Positions 7,704 through 36,063 of a DNA stretch of 64,000 nucleotides are shown piece after piece (the stretch's first letter is position 1; every line of letters begins with the position of its first letter). The translations under genes were made by a program, and so were the position numbers. The stretch covers positions 1 through 64,000 of the forward strand of contig NZ_LT906662.1 in NCBI RefSeq assembly GCF_900205865.1, in the 5' to 3' direction. Under the pieces are notes generated by a model. That model was not told the DNA's origin and searched no databases. It worked only from the letters and a program-made list of their open reading frames with translations. This stretch comes from Thermoanaerobacterium sp. RBIITD. Its GTDB lineage: Bacteria; Bacillota; Thermoanaerobacteria; Thermoanaerobacterales; Thermoanaerobacteraceae.

Positions 7704-8357
7704 CTAAGGATTAGTAAGGTCAAATTCAACGCTCACATCCCTGTATGCTGTCATACCATAAACGTAAATTCTACAGTCTAATATTGAATATGGTGGTACA
7801 TCAGATCTATAAGCTCCCGGGGTCGAATCTGTTGAATAATGCCATGAATCAGAAGTAGGATAAAACTTACCACCTAGCCCTGCTCCAGGATTGCGCCAAT
7901 ATACTACTCTATTTCCTGCATAGTACATACCTTGAGGTGTAGTAGAACCAAATACAGCATATATAGAAACAGTATTGTTTAACGCATTTGCTGAATATGA
8001 TAATCCAGTGGTTAAAATAATATCATCATTTTTTGTAGTAGATCCATCAATTATACTAGAAAGCGTCTGATTCAAATATTTTCCTAAATGTATATTTGCT
8101 GATTTTTGTACTATTTCCCCATTCATATTATTTAAACTAGAACTAAAAGCTGATATTTTTGAATTGTCAATCTTTGATGTAGTTAGTTTAATTTCTGATT
8201 CTGGGATTTCCCATTTCCAAACATGACCTGTTTCTGAATCAGAAATTTTAACGATTATTTTATTATTATCTGAATTATTTGCTGCAAAGGCAAAACTGAA
8301 TGATGAAACTGAAAGAAGCGCTACAACAAGAACCAATGAAACAACCTTTTTTAACAT
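7704..8357 (-). CDS. Cassette-variable secreted protein V1
   Basis: The 217-aa product begins with a clear Sec signal peptide (MLKKVVSLVLVVALL, cleavage after 'FAFAA'). The mature part is rich in Ser, Thr, Asn, Tyr and Gly and has no domain that I recognise; its C-terminal half looks like a beta-rich secreted protein. I place the start at 8357 because GGGAG lies eight bases upstream; the longer frame would translate the conserved leader. It follows the leader described at 8358-8509 and is the intact representative closest to the left edge. No catalytic motif is visible. Confidence 0.75.
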   Translation of the reverse strand: MLKKVVSLVLVVALLSVSSFSFAFAANNSDNNKIIVKISDSETGHVWKWEIPESEIKLTTSKIDNSKISAFSSSLNNMNGEIVQKSANIHLGKYLNQTLSSIIDGSTTKNDDIILTTGLSYSANALNNTVSIYAVFGSTTPQGMYYAGNRVVYWRNPGAGLGGKFYPTSDSWHYSTDSTPGAYRSDVPPYSILDCRIYVYGMTAYRDVSVEFDLTNP

Positions 8358-8509
8358 TTCTAAACATCTCCCTTTTATAGTTAGTAACACTATCTCGGTA
8401 CCAAAACAGCATACTAACTACATTTTTATTAAACATCGAATGGCCATTCATCTGTTTGACTACATTATAAACTATATTCCATCTTTTGGGAAGTTCCGAA
8501 ATTCGGCAC
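8358..8509 (-). promoter_or_regulatory. Cassette promoter, dyad box A and conserved leader (copy 1)
   Basis: Box A is GTTCCGAAATTCGGCAC (plus strand, 8493-8509). Read toward the gene it abuts a -35-like TTCCCA, a 17-bp spacer and TATAAT. The leader of about 105 nt holds the palindrome GAATGGCCATTC, a stem TAGTTAGTA/TACTAACTA enclosing a hairpin, and AAAAGGGAGATG. Box B and the regulator gene are missing here. The sequence above box A joins directly to a copy of the upstream region of the 144-aa secreted gene, which indicates a deletion. Confidence 0.7.
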
Positions 8510-15736: not shown

Positions 15737-15797
15737 TTAATTTCATAGATTAAATTTTCTTTAATTTTTGAATTATCTCCTGAATACTACCGAAACC

Positions 15798-15965
15798 TTT
15801 TAGTTAGTAACACTATCTCGGTACCAAAACAGCATACTAACTACATTTTTATTAAACATCGAATGGCCATTCATCTGTTTGACTACATTATAACTCCAAG
15901 CCCAACATTTGGGAAGTTCCGAAATTCGGCACATTTTTTATAAATTAGGTGCCGAATTCCGGCAC
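15798..15965 (-). promoter_or_regulatory. Cassette promoter, dyad boxes A and B and conserved leader (copy 2)
   Basis: Box A (GTTCCGAAATTCGGCAC) is at 15916-15932 and box B (GTGCCGAATTCCGGCAC) at 15949-15965, with centres 33 bp apart. Read toward lower coordinates, TTCCCA, a 17-bp spacer and TATAAT follow box A, then the leader with its TAGTTAGTA/TACTAACTA stem. The leader breaks off at about 15798 before the ribosome binding site, so this copy no longer drives a secreted gene. Confidence 0.75.
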
Positions 15966-15972
15966 ATCATTA

Positions 15973-16791
15973 CTATAATATATTGCCATGTGTGTCTATG
16001 ATGCCTATGTTTATGGCTGCCATTATTATTTTTATATCATTGTCTGCATCAAATAATATGCCTAATTTATTTAGATGATTTCTCAATGCTCTGTCAGATA
16101 TGCCTACTTCGTCCATTACTGCTTTCCTTACACCATTTCGGACTAATGATGATAGGATAAGTTTATCAGTGTCATTGATCTCTTCTTCTACGAAAGACAT
16201 ATTTTCACATCTATACGATATACATTTTTCAAGGTAAATTGCTATGTTTTTTAGAGTAAAGCTCTGCTCTTTTATGCTGGGAATCTTTATGCGGGATATA
16301 TCAAGGTATGCAACTATTTCTTTGCTATAATGATCTGTAATAGGCATTGCAGTGCAATACCAGTTCTTAAACAAATCGCAATAATGGTCTTTTCCGTATA
16401 ACTGTGCAAGGCTTTTGTATTCCATGGCTATGTCGACTGCATTTGTTCCACTGTCTTCAAGCCTTAAACTTATGCCTTCTCTAAATTGCAGTTTTTTGAA
16501 ATCTTCATTTAATTGGTCATTAGCTATAATTTCAATCACATAACCGTCTTTATCACATAGAATAAAGAAATAGCCTTCTTCAATAAGCACTTTATACCTA
16601 TAGCATTGTTTTAAAAAGTTGTTTAACAGTAATATTAAAAAGTTATTATCTCTTTTCTTTTTTAACAATGCATCATCATCGATTGTTCTATCAAATGAGT
16701 TTTTGTCAGGATTGATATTTAAAAGCAATGATTCCCCATAAGACACAGTCAGCTTACCATTTCCTCTTTTTATAAATGCGTCATTGTTCAT
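15973..16791 (-). CDS. Cassette regulator R1: GAF-like sensor with C-terminal HTH, no AAA+ domain
   Basis: Residues about 60-175 resemble the sensor region of AcoR-type sigma-54 activators ('FFILCDKDGYVIEII', 'LRLEDSGTNAVDIAM', 'KDHYCDLFKNWYCTAMPI', 'EIVAYLDIS'). The C-terminal ~50 residues hold an HTH ('AVMDEVGISDRALRNHLNKL'). The central ATPase of that family is absent, so it should act as an ordinary DNA-binding regulator. I take the ATG at 16791 as start because GGAG lies eight bases upstream. Its stop lies seven bases from dyad box B, so it may autoregulate or activate the adjacent promoter. It is nearly identical to R2 at 24850. Confidence 0.75.
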   Translation of the reverse strand: MNNDAFIKRGNGKLTVSYGESLLLNINPDKNSFDRTIDDDALLKKKRDNNFLILLLNNFLKQCYRYKVLIEEGYFFILCDKDGYVIEIIANDQLNEDFKKLQFREGISLRLEDSGTNAVDIAMEYKSLAQLYGKDHYCDLFKNWYCTAMPITDHYSKEIVAYLDISRIKIPSIKEQSFTLKNIAIYLEKCISYRCENMSFVEEEINDTDKLILSSLVRNGVRKAVMDEVGISDRALRNHLNKLGILFDADNDIKIIMAAINIGIIDTHGNIL

Positions 16792-16848
16792 CAATATCAC
16801 TCCATACTTTTATCTTTCCGTAAATCATTAAGCATAATTTTTATTCTT

Positions 16849-21907: not shown

Positions 21908-22486
21908 TTATATTAGCATATACACATTATCTTGAGTAGTATTTATTGTTATAATGCCATCTTTATAATTGACTATATCTTCAAATGCTTCACTTATAAA
22001 CCTCAAAGGAATATATGTACAGTTATTGACTAATCTCACCTTTGCTGGAAGTTCACTGATCTTTTCATTTATTTTTACTGCCTTGGACCCTATTGTCAAC
22101 TCTACAGTCATATTGTCTTTTTTTACTATTATTGTTTGACTACCACTATACCAATTCACTGTTGCACCTAATTTTTCAAAAAACTCACGCACCGGTACTA
22201 ATGTAATTCCGTCTATTAAAGTAAATGACTCCTGAATAAATTTTATCTCTTGCCCGTTTATCTTGATTTTCGGAACATAAGGAAAATGTATTACTGTACC
22301 TCCACCTGAATCTTTATAAATGATCATACCATTGTCCAATTCTTGAGAAAATCCTGCTTGAGCGACAGTTTCTTGGCTTATAGGTTTTGTATCATCTTGT
22401 ACGGCATAAGCGATGGATCCTGTACATACAACAGCAAAAATAGCAACAAACAAAATACGTTTAAGAAAAACAAATTTCATCCTCAC
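21908..22486 (-). CDS. Secreted stalk-domain protein, copy 2
   Basis: The 192-aa copy keeps the same signal peptide and the 'DNGMIIYKDSGGGTVIHF' linker. Its copper-amine-oxidase-N-like domain is more diverged ('FIQESFTLIDGI', 'WYSGSQTIIVKKDN', 'FISEAFEDIVNYKDGIITI'), and the C-terminus is extended by 'VYMLI' after a changed stop. It is the last gene of the second 4-TM/VanZ/stalk unit. Unlike copies 1 and 3, no strong terminator hairpin follows it. It may be drifting towards loss of function. Confidence 0.78.
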   Translation of the reverse strand: MRMKFVFLKRILFVAIFAVVCTGSIAYAVQDDTKPISQETVAQAGFSQELDNGMIIYKDSGGGTVIHFPYVPKIKINGQEIKFIQESFTLIDGITLVPVREFFEKLGATVNWYSGSQTIIVKKDNMTVELTIGSKAVKINEKISELPAKVRLVNNCTYIPLRFISEAFEDIVNYKDGIITINTTQDNVYMLI

Positions 22487-23767: not shown

Positions 23768-24657
23768 TTATTGAATTAATTCTTGATCAGTATCCCAAAA
23801 TAATACAGGAACATTTTTAACTAAAAGTGTATAGCTAACAGTTGCCTCTAAATAATAATTTCCACTTTCATAAGCCCCTTGGCTAATATACCATGTTTGT
23901 ATATTTCGGCTTGGGCAATCAGGTGTACCCCAAAAAATACCATAAGGTTCATTTTCGTTAGCTATCGTAATACCGTCAAAACCTGAAGCCCAATCTATAT
24001 ATCCATAAAGCCTATCAATTAAAATCTCATACCATCAGGTGCATTGCTAATAACAGTATAATATAAAGTACCTTCTACAGTGCCACCACTTAAAATAAAT
24101 GGTATATCTAAAGCACTTTTAAAAATATGAAGCTGCTTATCCTGATAATAAGTATTTGGCGTAATAATTGTTTCTTTATCTAAATCTAAATCGCCATTAG
24201 ATTTCTCGTTGTTTTGAATTGATAAATTTACATTTTTAATATCTTCCTTAATTTCATTTAATTTTTGCTTATCTGATATTATAAAGGCTTTAATAACATC
24301 TTTTTTATTGTTAAAAACTATTCCACTTAAACCGTAATTATTTTTAACAATATTTATATCTAAAGTTTGATCTCCATATTGAGCTTTACCTTTAAAATAA
24401 TCGACATCTTCTTCAGATTTGTATTTATCGACCGAAAAATTTACTCCTTCTATTGATCCATTTATTACTTGGCTATTTTGATCAATATTATAATCGCTAA
24501 ATTCAGATTGAATTTCTATCTGATCGCCTCTAATATTGTAATAGAAGCCCGTATTTTTGTTGCTTGCATTAATATCATGTGTCAAAGCTGCAAAACCAAT
24601 AGCCATCGAAAAAACTAATGCCAAGCACAGTAGAAGTGAAACCAAGAATCTTTTCAT
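23768..24657 (-). pseudogene. Cassette-variable secreted protein V2, one frameshift
   Basis: The ATG at 24657 follows the conserved AAAAGGGAGATG. A Sec signal peptide (MKRFLVSLLLCLALVFSMA) precedes a polar 200-residue region, and the frame closes at 24019 after 'SNAPDGMRF'. One base upstream of that point shifts it into an open frame of 83 codons ('ILIDRLYGYIDWASGFDG', 'NIQTWYISQGAYESGNYY'), ending at 23768. The expected coding of DGYEIL would need one more T, so I read it as a single 290-residue protein broken once. Signal peptide and C-terminal style match V4 at 35082. Function unknown. Confidence 0.65.
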
Positions 24658-24843
24658 TTCTAAACATCTCCCTTTTATAGTTAGTAATACTATCTCGGTA
24701 TTAAAACAGTATACTAACTACATTTTTATTAAACATCGAATGGCCATTCATCTGTTTAACTATATTATAAACCCCATTCCATCTTTTGGGCAGTTCCGAA
24801 ATTCGGCACATTTTTTTATGAAGTAGGTGCCGTTTTTCGGAAC
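24658..24843 (-). promoter_or_regulatory. Cassette promoter, dyad boxes A and B and conserved leader (copy 3)
   Basis: Box A is at 24793-24809 and box B (GTGCCGTTTTTCGGAAC) at 24827-24843, with centres 34 bp apart. In the leader, changes at two stem positions compared with copy 1 keep base pairing (UGCU/AGUG becomes UACU/AGUA), while the inner GGTACC has become AATACC. The ribosome binding site AAAAGGGAGATG precedes the V2 start. Confidence 0.78.
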
Positions 24844-24849
24844 ATCACC

Positions 24850-25668
24850 TTATAATATATTGCCATGTGTGTCTATAATGCCTATGTTTATGGCTGTCAT
24901 AATTATTTTTATGTCATTGTCTGCATCAAATAGTATGCCTAATTTATTTAGATGGTTTCTCAATGCTCTGTCAGATATGCCTACATCGTCCATTACTGCT
25001 TTCCTTACACCGTTTCGGACCAATGATGACAGGATATGCTTATCAGTATCATCGATCTCTTCTTCTATGGCAGACATCTTCTCGCTTCTATACGATATGC
25101 ATTTTTCAAGGTAAATTGCTATGTTTTTTAGAGTAATGCTCTGCTCTTTTATGCTGGGAATCTTTATGCGCGAAACATCAAGATATGCTACTATTTCTTT
25201 GCTATAATGATCTGTAATAGGCATTGCAGTACAATACCAGTTCTTAAACAAGTCGCAATAATGGTCTTTTCCGTATAACTGTGCAAGGCTTTTGTATTCC
25301 ATGGCTATGTTGACTGCATTTGTGCCACTGTCTTCAAGCCTTAGGCTTATGCCTTCTTTAAATTGCAGCTTTTTGAAATCTTCATTTAATTGGGCATTAG
25401 CTATAATTTCAATCACATAACCGTCTTTATCACACAGAATAAAGAAGTAGCCTTCTTCAATAAGTACTCTGTACCTATAACATTGATTTACGAAGTTGTT
25501 TAACAGCAATATTAAAAAGTTATTATCTCTTCTCTTTTTTAACAATGCATTATCATCGATTGTTTTATCAAAGGAGTTTTTGTCAGGATTGATATTTATA
25601 AGCAATGATTCCCCATAAGATACAGTCAGTTTTCCGTTTCCTCTTTTTATAAATGCGTCATTGTTCAT
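24850..25668 (-). CDS. Cassette regulator R2: GAF-like sensor with C-terminal HTH
   Basis: Like R1, this 272-aa protein has an AcoR-like sensor region ('LCDKDGYVIEII', 'LRLEDSGTNAVNIAM', 'DHYCDLFKNWYCTAMPI') and the HTH 'AVMDDVGISDRALRNHLNKL' near the end. It has no AAA+ domain. The ATG at 25668 has GGAG eight bases upstream. It lies 57 bp behind the intact 144-aa secreted gene and stops six bases before dyad box B of the V2 promoter. This is the only cassette in which secreted gene, regulator, both dyads and leader are all complete. Ligand unknown. Confidence 0.78.
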   Translation of the reverse strand: MNNDAFIKRGNGKLTVSYGESLLININPDKNSFDKTIDDNALLKKRRDNNFLILLLNNFVNQCYRYRVLIEEGYFFILCDKDGYVIEIIANAQLNEDFKKLQFKEGISLRLEDSGTNAVNIAMEYKSLAQLYGKDHYCDLFKNWYCTAMPITDHYSKEIVAYLDVSRIKIPSIKEQSITLKNIAIYLEKCISYRSEKMSAIEEEIDDTDKHILSSLVRNGVRKAVMDDVGISDRALRNHLNKLGILFDADNDIKIIMTAINIGIIDTHGNIL

Positions 25669-25725
25669 CAATATCACTCCATCCTTTTATCTTTCCGTAA
25701 ATCATTGAACATAATTCTTATTCTT

Positions 25726-26438: not shown

Positions 26439-27002
26439 TTAATTGCCTTGAGCAGCATCTACTGTTATAACACCATCTTTATAATCGACTTTATATCCAA
26501 ATGCTTCACTTATAACCCTTAGGGGAATATATGTGCAATTATTGACTAATCGCACCTTCGCTGGAAGTTCACTGATCTTTTCATTTATTTCTGCTACCTT
26601 TGTCCCTATTGTCAACTCTACAGTCGTACTACCTTTTTCTACTGTTATTGTTTGACTGTCACTATGCCAATTTACTGTTGCACCTAATTTTTCAAAAAAT
26701 TCACGCGCCGGTACTAATGTAATTCCGTCTATTAAAGTAAATGGCTCCTGAATAAATTTTATCTCTTGCCCATTTATCTTGATTTTCGGAACATAAGGAA
26801 AATGTATTACAGTGCCTCCACCTGAATCTCTATAAATGATTATGCCATTGTCCATTTCTTGAGAATATCCTGCTTGAAGGACAGTTTCTTTGGTTACAGG
26901 TTTTCCATCATCTTGTACGGCGTAAGCGATGGATCCTGTACATACAACAGCAAAAATAGCAACAAACAAAATACGTTTAAGAAAAACAAATTTCATCCTC
27001 AT
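26439..27002 (-). CDS. Secreted stalk-domain protein, copy 3
   Basis: The 187-aa product has the signal peptide, 'DNGIIIYRDSGGGTVIHF' linker and intact copper-amine-oxidase-N-like domain ('LVPAREFFEKLGATVNW', 'NCTYIPLRVISEAFGYKVDY'). The coding sequence is close to copy 1, but the 5' flank is different. Here the gene follows the beta-propeller gene at 27062 and not VanZ, and AAAGGA replaces the GAGGAG site. The homology with the other copies starts abruptly at the start codon, which points to recombination at that position. Confidence 0.82.
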   Translation of the reverse strand: MRMKFVFLKRILFVAIFAVVCTGSIAYAVQDDGKPVTKETVLQAGYSQEMDNGIIIYRDSGGGTVIHFPYVPKIKINGQEIKFIQEPFTLIDGITLVPAREFFEKLGATVNWHSDSQTITVEKGSTTVELTIGTKVAEINEKISELPAKVRLVNNCTYIPLRVISEAFGYKVDYKDGVITVDAAQGN

Positions 27003-28615: not shown

Positions 28616-29395
28616 TCATGGTTCTGGATTATAATTAGTTAGCGGTACAAATGTACGACTATAAAAAACGCCATCACTAGTATTCCCATGCAAATCATTA
28701 AAAATATATTTATCAAGATCAGCAATTCTTCTTGTTGCAATGCCAACTTGGTTAGGTCCAAAATCATTTCGAGTTATCTCTTTTGCTCTATTTGTTCCTA
28801 AATCTCTAATATTAAAAAGTACCGGTTGAGCCACATCAACAACTTTCTGATTTGGAACAGTTGCATTTCCATTTCTATATGGTAATGCATTATATCCACT
28901 CGTATTATACCATGTAACATCACCATAGGATGTCAAATAATCCTGACCATTATATGTTGATCTAGTACCTATTGTATGTCTAGCATAAACATCTACATTA
29001 CCCCAAGTTCCAATATAAATTGGATAATACTCAATATCATAATAGTTTCCAGAAATCATTGTATAGTTGTCAGGATTATTTTTTCTGACCTCTAAATCTT
29101 TTTCCATTGCACTTTTTTCAGTGTCCTGGTTTTCTAGAATCTTTTTCCCTTTATCTACTTCCTCTTTAGTAATTTCTTTCGTTCCCGCAAAATGTAATAC
29201 TATTCCTCCCAACGTATCTGTATAAACTTTTATCCCATCTTCAAGTTCTCTATAACTACCAGCATCTATATTAATTTTAGAATGTGTATCATTTAATGCC
29301 ATTGATTCTTTCTGAAATGCCTTCGCTGAAATTCCAATTGATAAAGCTAACATTGTGCTGATTATATACACAATTAACATACGTCTTTTTAACAT
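28616..29395 (-). CDS. Cassette-variable secreted protein V3
   Basis: The ATG at 29395 follows GGGAGATGTATAGAA. The 259-aa product has a signal peptide (cleavage near 'ISAKA', residue 24). An N-terminal stretch 'EDGIKVYTDTLGGIVLHF' closely matches the 'DNGIIIYKDSGGGTVIHF' linker of the stalk proteins. A charged helix (about residues 75-105) and a Tyr/Asn/Gly-rich beta-type domain follow. No catalytic motif is evident. It is open and follows a complete dyad pair, but its own regulator R3 is truncated, so R1 or R2 would have to act in trans. Confidence 0.75.
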   Translation of the reverse strand: MLKRRMLIVYIISTMLALSIGISAKAFQKESMALNDTHSKINIDAGSYRELEDGIKVYTDTLGGIVLHFAGTKEITKEEVDKGKKILENQDTEKSAMEKDLEVRKNNPDNYTMISGNYYDIEYYPIYIGTWGNVDVYARHTIGTRSTYNGQDYLTSYGDVTWYNTSGYNALPYRNGNATVPNQKVVDVAQPVLFNIRDLGTNRAKEITRNDFGPNQVGIATRRIADLDKYIFNDLHGNTSDGVFYSRTFVPLTNYNPEP

Positions 29396-29580
29396 TTCTA
29401 TACATCTCCCTTTTATAGTTAGTAACACTATCTCGGTACCAAAACAGCATACTAACTACTTTTTTATCAAACATCGAATGGCCATTCATCTGTTTGACTA
29501 CATTATAACTCCAAGTCCAACATTTGGAAAGTTACGAAATTCGGCACATTTTTTATGAATTAGGTGCCGAATTCCGGCAC
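29396..29580 (-). promoter_or_regulatory. Cassette promoter, dyad boxes A and B and conserved leader (copy 4)
   Basis: Box A (GTTACGAAATTCGGCAC, one change) is at 29531-29547 and box B (GTGCCGAATTCCGGCAC) at 29564-29580, with centres 33 bp apart. The promoter TTCCAA-type/TATAAT and the leader stem match copies 1 and 2. Confidence 0.75.
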
Positions 29581-29586
29581 ATCATT

Positions 29587-29860
29587 CTATAATATATTGC
29601 CATGTGTGTCTATAATACCTAAGTTTATGGCTGTCATTATTATTTTTATGTCATTGTCTGCGTCAAATAGTATGCCTATTTTATTTAGATGGTTTCTCAA
29701 GGTTCTGTCAGATATGCCTACTTCGTCCATTACTGCTTTCCTTACACCATTTCGGACCAATGATGATAGGATAAGCTTATCAGTGTCATTGATCTCTTCT
29801 TCTATGGCAGACATCTTATCGCTTCTATACGATATGCAATTTTCAAGGTAGATTGCTATA
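29587..29860 (-). pseudogene. Cassette regulator R3, only the C-terminal HTH part
   Basis: About 91 codons of the regulator C-terminus remain, including 'AVMDEVGISDRTLRNHLNKI'. The sequence upstream joins directly to the stop codon of the preceding secreted-protein pseudogene, so a deletion removed the sensor region and start. An internal ATG at 29814 could yield a 75-aa HTH-only protein, but I see no ribosome binding site for it. Confidence 0.7.
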
Positions 29861-29864
29861 TATT

Positions 29865-30299
29865 TTAATACCAGTGTGCATCGCTTGTATAGCTAGCTTG
29901 CTCTAATTGAACTCCATTTCTATAGACTGTACCCTTCGTGACAAGCCTGTAATAATAACCCTCATCAACATACCATATTTCACTTATAGAGCAGCTAATA
30001 TCTGTTGATGTATTGGACCAGCTTTTGATAGTCACCCAGTTTCCGTTCTTGTACTGTTGAATATATACATCAATTCTGATTTTGTCAACGCTGAATGCAT
30101 ATAATGCACTGTCGACAGTTGATTTTCCCATCGATTATATATCGAATGTATTAGTAAACTGGGATATAGCTATCCAATTAGGTCTTACTGTATCTGTCAT
30201 CAATTTCTTTGAAATACCATCATCTGCAAAACCAGTGGTTGAAAGTAATGTCATCATCATTATTGTCAACACAAAAATAGGCAAAAATTTTTTAAACAT
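29865..30299 (-). pseudogene. 144-residue secreted protein gene with nonsense mutation
   Basis: The frame from ATG 30299 encodes the family signal peptide and N-terminus, then stops at TAA after 'FDI' (near 30138). The intact gene at 26160 has TCA there ('FDISSMGKS'). After the stop the frame is open and family-like up to 'SDAHWY' at 29865. It is thus a single C-to-A nonsense change in an otherwise well conserved gene. Confidence 0.78.
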
Positions 30300-30677: not shown

Positions 30678-31972
<1,295 letters not shown>

Positions 31973-35081: not shown

Positions 35082-35868
35082 CTAAGAATATAAAGTAACT
35101 TGATCAGTTAGTTTGAAATTTGATGGAATATTATTAAATTCTAAATTAACTACTGGAGCACTACCAGGTTGCCAACTTAAACCGAGTGATTTTAAAGTTA
35201 CGTCTTGCCATGTATGTTCTAAGCTCATCGCTATATATAAAGGTAATTCCGTTGGAGTTTATCTAGCCAAAACCATATCTGCCCTTGATATCCAATATAT
35301 TTCGCATCATTTAGGCTAGAACGTACCCACGCATCTTGAAATGTATACACAATACCAGATTTGCTAATTGTTGAAACACCTCCAGCATCTGGCCAATATG
35401 TTCCGTTTTGGTCATATACTGCAATACCAGCAGGATTACTAGAAAGAACATATCCAGTCGCTGGATTAAAATTTGTATTTGTAAGCGCTATTGAAACTCC
35501 ATCTACTGCACCACTATTTGAATCAACAGAATAAATACTTTTCCAAGTCCACCAACCATTTATAAATATTTACCTGAAAGCCTATCACGATACCCACTCA
35601 TATTAATAAATTTTACACTTCCATTGCTACTATCTGGTGTTATTATAGAAAAGCTTTTTATGTTATTAGCTTTTTCAAAACCGTTCTTTGTTAAAAAGTC
35701 ATCAACACTTTGATAACCATTTTCCCCTAACTTAATCATATTTTTTTCTATAAATGCCCTTCTTATTTCCCAATTTTCGTCTTTTTTATTTTCATTTGCT
35801 GCAAAACCTACAGTCGTCGAAAAAACTAATGTCAAGCACAGTAGAGGTGAAACCAAGAATCTTTTCAT
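35082..35868 (-). pseudogene. Cassette-variable secreted protein V4, two frameshifts
   Basis: The ATG at 35868 follows AAAAGGGAGATG. The signal peptide (MKRFLVSPLLCLTLVFSTT) matches V2. The first frame ends at 35560 after 'YRDRLSGKYL'. One lost T there returns it to 'FINGWWTWKSIYSVDSN' and 'SSNPAGIAVYDQNGTYWP', and a lost A near 35262 leads to 'LYIAMSLEHTWQDVTLKSLG' and the end 'NFKLTDQVTLYS' at 35082. The repaired protein would have about 260 residues with a beta-rich secreted domain. Both lesions are in A/T runs. Function unknown. Confidence 0.62.
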
Positions 35869-36063
35869 TTCTAAACATCTCCCTTTTATAGTTAGTAATA
35901 CTATCTCGGTACCAAAACAGTATACTAACTACATTTTTATTAAACATTGAATGGCCATTCATCTGTTTGACTATATTATAAACTCCATCCCAACTTTTGG
36001 GAAGTTCCGAAATTCGACACATTTTTTCGCTAATATACTAAAATAGGTGCTGCTTTTCGGCAC
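35869..36063 (-). promoter_or_regulatory. Cassette promoter, dyad boxes A and B and conserved leader (copy 5)
   Basis: Box A (GTTCCGAAATTCGACAC) is at 36004-36020 and box B (GTGCTGCTTTTCGGCAC) at 36047-36063. The centres are 43 bp apart, ten more than in other copies, so they stay on the same face of the helix. The leader has the UACU/AGUA variant of the stem seen in copy 3, with GGTACC retained. Confidence 0.72.

Follow-up and report, generated by a model that had tools for sequence, protein, structure and literature searches.

The short stretch that separates the promoter from the start codon of a gene for a secreted-type protein is found several times in the window (the whole 64-kb stretch of DNA analysed here). 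The question that this locus raises is whether the repeated stretch is kept as a structured RNA, as a DNA site or as a coding sequence, and what it could do for the genes that follow it.

Leader copies in the window

The exact palindrome GAATGGCCATTC was found at five sites of the window (8438, 15861, 24738, 29476 and 35949) and nowhere else in it; its context is the same at all five, and no shuffle contained as many near-matches. A preliminary description of this DNA had seen this palindrome in five leaders, together with an outer stem TAGTTAGTA/TACTAACTA and an inner hairpin with CCGAGA, and all these elements were indeed present in the five copies. The same description placed AAAAGGGAGATG before the start codon in all leaders, which does not apply to copy 2 (about 15.8 kb). 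There, hairpin B runs directly into unrelated sequence, with neither a Shine-Dalgarno (SD) sequence nor a signal-peptide gene, and the open frame on the opposite strand after this stem is probably a transposase.

The sorting of copies 1, 2 and 4 (UGCU/AGUG) from copies 3 and 5 (UACU/AGUA) was also correct, but the differences between both types had been called compensatory and they are two one-sided steps from wobble to Watson-Crick pairs (U.G to U-A and G.U to A-U). Such exchanges agree with an RNA fold but do not amount to double compensation, and true double changes were seen only after adding the copies from the rest of this genome and from other genomes.

The candidate leader peptide was rejected. 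As had been pointed out, the frame MNGHSMFNK... is broken by TAA in copy 3; in addition, indels in A-runs shift the frame in other genomes and subfamily II has no ATG. A conserved frame with a ribosome binding site (RBS) running through the leader was found neither in the copies of the window nor in those of other genomes.

Distribution among genomes

Two covariance models were used, R2 for the whole leader, starting at TATAAT, and R1 for hairpin B. The search of related genomes with such a model, which the preliminary description had proposed, gave 43 R2 sites, all within Thermoanaerobacterium, in eight of the nine genomes of this genus (13 sites in the genome of the window), and no match in 15 other genomes of the order. 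A DNA search gave 12 copies in the 3.40-Mb genome of the window and further ones in genomes of the same genus, and the distribution obtained with R1 showed the same picture as that of R2. The R1 matches in Thermoanaerobacter (E about 0.03) were judged to be due to chance, since the two inspected (L170 and L172) sit within an exonuclease-like coding frame. In Thermosediminibacter (L195) the regulator and the operator-like dyads are present and the leader is absent.

No Rfam family matched the leader at gathering or relaxed thresholds. Plasmid and phage collections gave no match to the query, viral contigs gave none for the exact pattern, and no description of the leader was found in the literature searched. 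This is a real, structured RNA leader, which in the set of genomes searched occurs only in Thermoanaerobacterium; Rfam does not contain it, and its general kind is known.

The module: regulator, operator, promoter and cargo

The order of the elements is a GAF-LuxR regulator gene, CCGAATTTCGG operator dyads, TATAAT, dyad A, hairpin B, SD and a signal-peptide gene (Table 1). All the inspected R2 matches have a promoter on one side and an RBS on the other, except that copy 2 and its relatives are interrupted after hairpin B, and neither R1 nor R2 searches found the leader away from the module. Most leader copies have a regulator gene, complete or fragmentary, upstream of them.

Table 1. Positions of the leader copies, of the parts of the module and of associated loci in the window or, for L numbers, elsewhere.
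Feature	Position	Strand	Remarks
Leader copy 1, including -10 box	8360..8469	-	UGCU/AGUG type; R2 E 3.3e-18; gene 7704-8390 downstream
Leader copy 2	15791..15892	-	UGCU/AGUG type; regulator 15973-16800 upstream; insertion after hairpin B replaces SD and gene
Leader copy 3	24658-24780	-	UACU/AGUA type; R2 match 24660-24769; interval also includes the -10 box
Leader copy 4	29398..29507	-	UGCU/AGUG type; R2 E 4.6e-18; gene 28616-29392 starts at ATG right after SD
Leader copy 5	35871..35980	-	UACU/AGUA type; R2 E 3.5e-18; gene 35560-35868 downstream
Secreted-type protein, 212 aa	24019..24657	-	shared signal peptide MKRFLVSLLLCLALVFS..; no family above cut-off
SD region GGGAGATG	24665..24672	-	about 5 nt after hairpin B
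Hairpin B	24677..24721	-	about 20 bp, sense strand; conserved tip UUUUGGUACCGAGA (here UUUUAAUACCGAGA)
Hairpin/dyad A	24729..24759	-	palindrome GAAUGGCCAUUC inside the outer arms UUAAACA/UGUUUAA; dyad centre about 20 nt past the -10 box
-10 box TATAAT of the leader promoter	24764..24769	-	invariant in 15 aligned leaders; transcription start predicted
Operator-like dyad GTGCCGAATTTCGGAAC, proximal	24793..24809	-	from sequence; kept in nearly all subfamily I copies
Operator-like dyad (GTTCCGAAAAACGGCAC), distal	24827..24843	-	from sequence
GAF-LuxR type regulator gene P0001, 275 aa	24850..25677	-	upstream of leader; DhaR-like GAF part
Regulator paralogues in the window	24850-25677, 15973-16800; fragments 29590-29886, 36094-36874		
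Genes after leaders with the shared signal-peptide types	e.g. 24019-24657, 28616-29392, 7704-8390, 35560-35868		
Insertions after hairpin B	15.0-15.83 kb; L113, L109, L111, L116, L118		
ACTATACtttTGTATAGT-type loci	L143-L156, L126, L127, L152, L160		

The regulator P0001 gave no Pfam match above cut-offs. A match to the GAF region of DhaR (NF008485, E 9e-12) covers its middle part, and its homologues bear Pfam GAF and/or GerE (LuxR) domains, the named relatives belonging to Thermoanaerobacterium saccharolyticum NTOU1 and T. butyriciformans. GAF-LuxR regulators form a large paralogous family with 31 matches in this genome, many of them truncated or broken; as a rule, each paralogue directly precedes an operator, a promoter and a secreted-protein gene of its own.

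Among the 14 copies of subfamily I, identity reached 93% in A and 90% in B, and was 84% in the operator stretch, 69% in that of the signal peptide and 56% in the mature one; the corresponding values for the 13 copies of subfamily II were 96, 93, 89, 83 and 59%. Random sequences give 52%, so the mature parts are near random. This profile therefore describes a module made of constant control parts and a variable cargo. A few signal-peptide types (MKRFLVSLLLC.., MLKKVVSLVLVV.. and MLKRRMLI..) are fused to unrelated mature proteins, a mixture which looks like modular exchange of cargo behind a constant promoter and leader.

Other features were observed as well. At least two different insertions start immediately downstream of the TACTAACTA end of hairpin B, deleting SD and gene, and the edge of this hairpin may attract insertions. 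The module region is flanked by two related proteins (21908-22486 and 26439-27002), both with a domain of the copper amine oxidase N-terminal type (PF07833). The transposase-like gene at 30747-31850 lies in at least two frames (30747-31307 and 31449-31706) and is probably a decayed insertion sequence. Finally, distant relatives of the regulator, both in Thermoanaerobacter and at a number of loci in this genome, have downstream of them the terminator-like ACTATACtttTGTATAGT with its T-run, a second copy of the dyad, a promoter TAGACA-N17-TTGTAAAAT and small or radical-SAM-like genes, which look like peptide modification clusters.

Hairpin B

Three forms of hairpin B were distinguished: GUAGUUAGUA-UGCUGUUUUG-GUAC-CGAGAUAGUG-U-UACUAACUA in subfamily I, GUAGUUAAUAUGCUUUUUG-GUAC-CGAGAAGCAUAUUGACUAC in subfamily II and GUAAUAUUGUUUAGGUACUGAAACAGUAUUAC in the single copy L200. 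In 22 distinct rows, pairing is kept in 95.3% of the cells, and it falls to 30-61% when the partner is slid by 1-3 columns. Changes on both sides of the stem were found in 18 cells against a shuffle mean of 4.5, a count reached by none of 500 shuffles, although double changes affect three pairs, a number that is not above that of shuffles, 70 of 500 reaching it. In addition, a G.U pair of subfamily I is absent on both sides in subfamily II, that is, as a paired deletion.

The imperfect pairs are informative about the strand on which the fold is kept. On the sense strand there are 95 G.U cells against 8 A.C cells; when each combination of subfamily, position and pair type is counted a single time, this becomes 14:4 (p about 0.03), a value uncorrected for the ancestry shared between subfamilies. 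Because a dyad kept as a DNA site for a protein should drift equally to G.T and A.C, this bias argues for an RNA fold. Folding energies of most subfamily I copies are about -18 to -24 kcal/mol for the sense strand against about -6 to -10 for the antisense strand; a sense value near -19 was usual among the copies, that of the antisense in subfamily I being about -7.

Hairpin B thus keeps its fold on the transcribed strand with paired changes, which is what a structured cis-acting leader requires, and from its sequence it is very probably an RNA hairpin maintained on the sense strand. The preference of the preliminary description for an RNA over a peptide is strongly sustained for this hairpin by wobble bias, paired changes and paired deletion, whereas for hairpin A an RNA stem and a DNA dyad are not separated. 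Much of the identity of the stem within each subfamily is explained by duplication or gene conversion. Hairpin B is absent from some modules that bear A (L100, L120, L121 and L132) and is therefore not essential to the module; for the same reason, A is the older or more general part.

Dyad A

Dyad A starts 4 nt downstream of TATAAT, close to where transcription is predicted to begin. It was studied by means of a table of pairs from 25 variants and of folding energies on both strands. Covariation between distant modules was seen in its outer arms and in its inner palindrome: A-U, C-G and G-C alternate at outer pair 5, A-U, G-C and C-G at outer pair 7, and U.G, U-A and C-G at the inner pair. In L107 a C-G pair has become A-U, L118 showing the half-way form, and in L121 an A-U pair has become G-C. 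However, over all variants there are 22 G.U against 23 A.C cells, thus no sense bias, and the fold is weak, subfamily II included. Dyad A is a conserved dyad with compensatory changes which fits a stem at the 5' end of the mRNA and a DNA operator alike.

Under the second of these readings, a serious though tentative alternative, dyad A would not be an RNA stem but a DNA operator, located at about +1 to +30, to which a dimeric repressor binds. This reading would account for a centre that is self-complementary in most variants (GGCC, GGCGCC or ACGT), for the distance of about 17-21 nt between TATAAT and this centre in most copies, and for antisense folds as good as the sense ones in many copies, with G.U equalling A.C. 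It is harder to reconcile with the outer arms of subfamily I, which are offset asymmetrically from the centre and yet covary (L107/L118 and L121), and with the exchanges of the inner pair and the two G.U pairs of L200, which preserve RNA pairing and break the DNA palindrome.

Another leader motif, UUGAC..AAACGGCCGUUU-GGA-GUCAG, was observed just before the SD at L129-L131, and a similar form, GAUGAAAAUCGGCCGAUUUGAAUC, in Thermoanaerobacter (L143 and L144). Its architecture is like that of dyad A, but it is distant from the promoter.

Possible role of the leader

The most economical reading, whose chances we hold to be about even, is that of a protective, translation-permissive leader which stabilises the mRNA. 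The transcription start would fall within the 5' arm of dyad A or immediately ahead of it, giving an mRNA with a paired 5' end, and A and B together would impede 5'-end-dependent decay. The SD after B would be single-stranded and loaded with ribosomes, and hairpin and bound ribosome would give rise to long-lived, well translated mRNAs for the secreted products, the genes of which would be switched on by the GAF-LuxR regulator. The conserved tip of B suggests that it could be recognised by a protein too. That a 5' hairpin, together with an SD or a bound ribosome, stabilises mRNAs is well established for Bacilli, the aprE leader included (PMC3997798). In the protective leader the hairpins would precede a ribosome-loaded SD, as in those long-lived Bacillus mRNAs. 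Against it stand the lack of sense bias in hairpin A and its weakness in subfamily II, and an SD partly paired in the MKRF-type copies.

It is possible, but rather unlikely, that hairpin B serves as the site of a trans-acting RNA-binding protein, or of RNase III, reading the tip UUUUGGUACCGAGA and exerting a common post-transcriptional control over the dispersed modules. The tip, including its U.G wobbles, is the same in subfamilies I and II despite the paired substitutions by which their lower stems differ, and it is common to all copies in a genome. However, the module does not encode any RNA-binding protein, the tip deviates in w1 (AAUACC), c6 (CCAAAA), L117 and L200, and its conservation could reflect a recent common origin. 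The wider proposal that a genus-specific two-hairpin RNA, read at the tip of B by a trans-acting factor, jointly controls regulator-linked, cargo-swapping secreted-protein modules post-transcriptionally is unlikely.

The preliminary description had also considered a translational switch. In the form examined here, hairpin A would compete with the pairing of its arms to the SD or to the start codon. SD openness was evaluated by partition-function folding at 37, 55 and 60 C, with shuffled-A and synonymous-recoding controls. In subfamily I copies with MLKK/MLKR-type signal peptides the SD was predicted to be mostly unpaired (0.7-0.97), with the exception of L117 (0.29 at 37 C). It was open in w3, w4, L103, L108, L112 and L200, remaining so at 60 C, and partly paired at 37 C in the MKRF-type w1, w2, L105 and L107. 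Shuffling of hairpin A reduced the openness of the SD in most of the former copies. In w3, w4, L103 and L112 it was as open as with a shuffled hairpin A or more so; synonymous recoding of the gene start changed it little, and no covariation between A and SD was seen. Pairing of the 5' arm of A of subfamily I with the SD-to-start stretch (AUGUUUA) was rejected as well, being not conserved (w4, L104 and L112 are without it). What speaks for a switch comes from subfamily II, where pairing is possible between CAUUUCC, located in the 3' arm of A, and the GGAGAUG of the SD; in most of these copies the predicted unpaired SD fraction is 0.00-0.1, and in four copies it is lower than with shuffled A (0 of 60 trials). 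The folding predictions suggest that this pairing may be a local switch not shared by the other subfamilies. SD sequestration as a general mechanism was rejected on the basis of the shuffle tests, and the switch as an explanation of the leader is improbable.

Still less probable is that the leader is a recently copied stretch (a MITE or a product of promoter gene conversion) without function as RNA. The copies are very highly identical and many regulator fragments lie upstream, but the leader is never found outside the module, for which reason a MITE was rejected; moreover, it is conserved more than promoter and operator, and where the subfamilies differ, the fold of B is preserved on just one strand. 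An attenuator, terminator or T-box-like element is scarcely credible: the tip UGGUACCGAG resembles the T-box UGGUACCGCG in sequence only and a T-run follows the dyad on the antisense strand, but that fold is weak, B is followed on the sense strand by UAAAAGGGAG or CAAAAAGGAG instead of the U-tract of an intrinsic terminator, and Rfam gave no T-box match even at E 5. Nor did the suggestion of a riboswitch-like motif prosper, as the leader has no Rfam match, no junction and no U-tract terminator.

The interest of the protective leader and of its alternatives is that a structured RNA absent from Rfam is tied to an apparently undescribed multi-copy system leading from a regulator to a secreted protein, in a thermophile used in biofuel work. 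A leader that stabilises mRNA at 55-60 C would offer thermophilic hosts a natural element for high expression, whereas one that binds a factor would be a shared control point for a whole secretome.

Comparison with known systems

The T-box antiterminator motif has a counterpart in the UGGUACCG at the tip of B. Nevertheless, a T-box was rejected, as the leader has no stem I, no terminator and no Rfam match, and it does not lie upstream of tRNA-synthetase or amino-acid genes. The regulator recalls the AcoR/DhaR-type GAF activators and the LuxR family, its GAF part matching DhaR and its relatives having GAF and/or GerE domains; unlike AcoR and DhaR, regulators of the P0001 type lack the sigma-54 AAA+ domain, and P0001 itself stays below Pfam cut-offs.

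In variable surface-protein families, such as S-layer type genes, a constant promoter, leader and signal peptide precede variable protein bodies. The Thermoanaerobacterium modules differ from these in that they often own a regulator gene and in that their proteins are unrelated and unnamed. Finally, the leaders of the aprE/ermC/cryIIIA type of Bacilli do not have the two hairpins, the many paralogous copies and the dedicated GAF-LuxR module seen here. They resemble the present leader in architecture, with a 5'-proximal hairpin (a predicted position in the present case) followed by an SD, a length of roughly 60-100 nt and, in the case of aprE, a gene for a secreted product.
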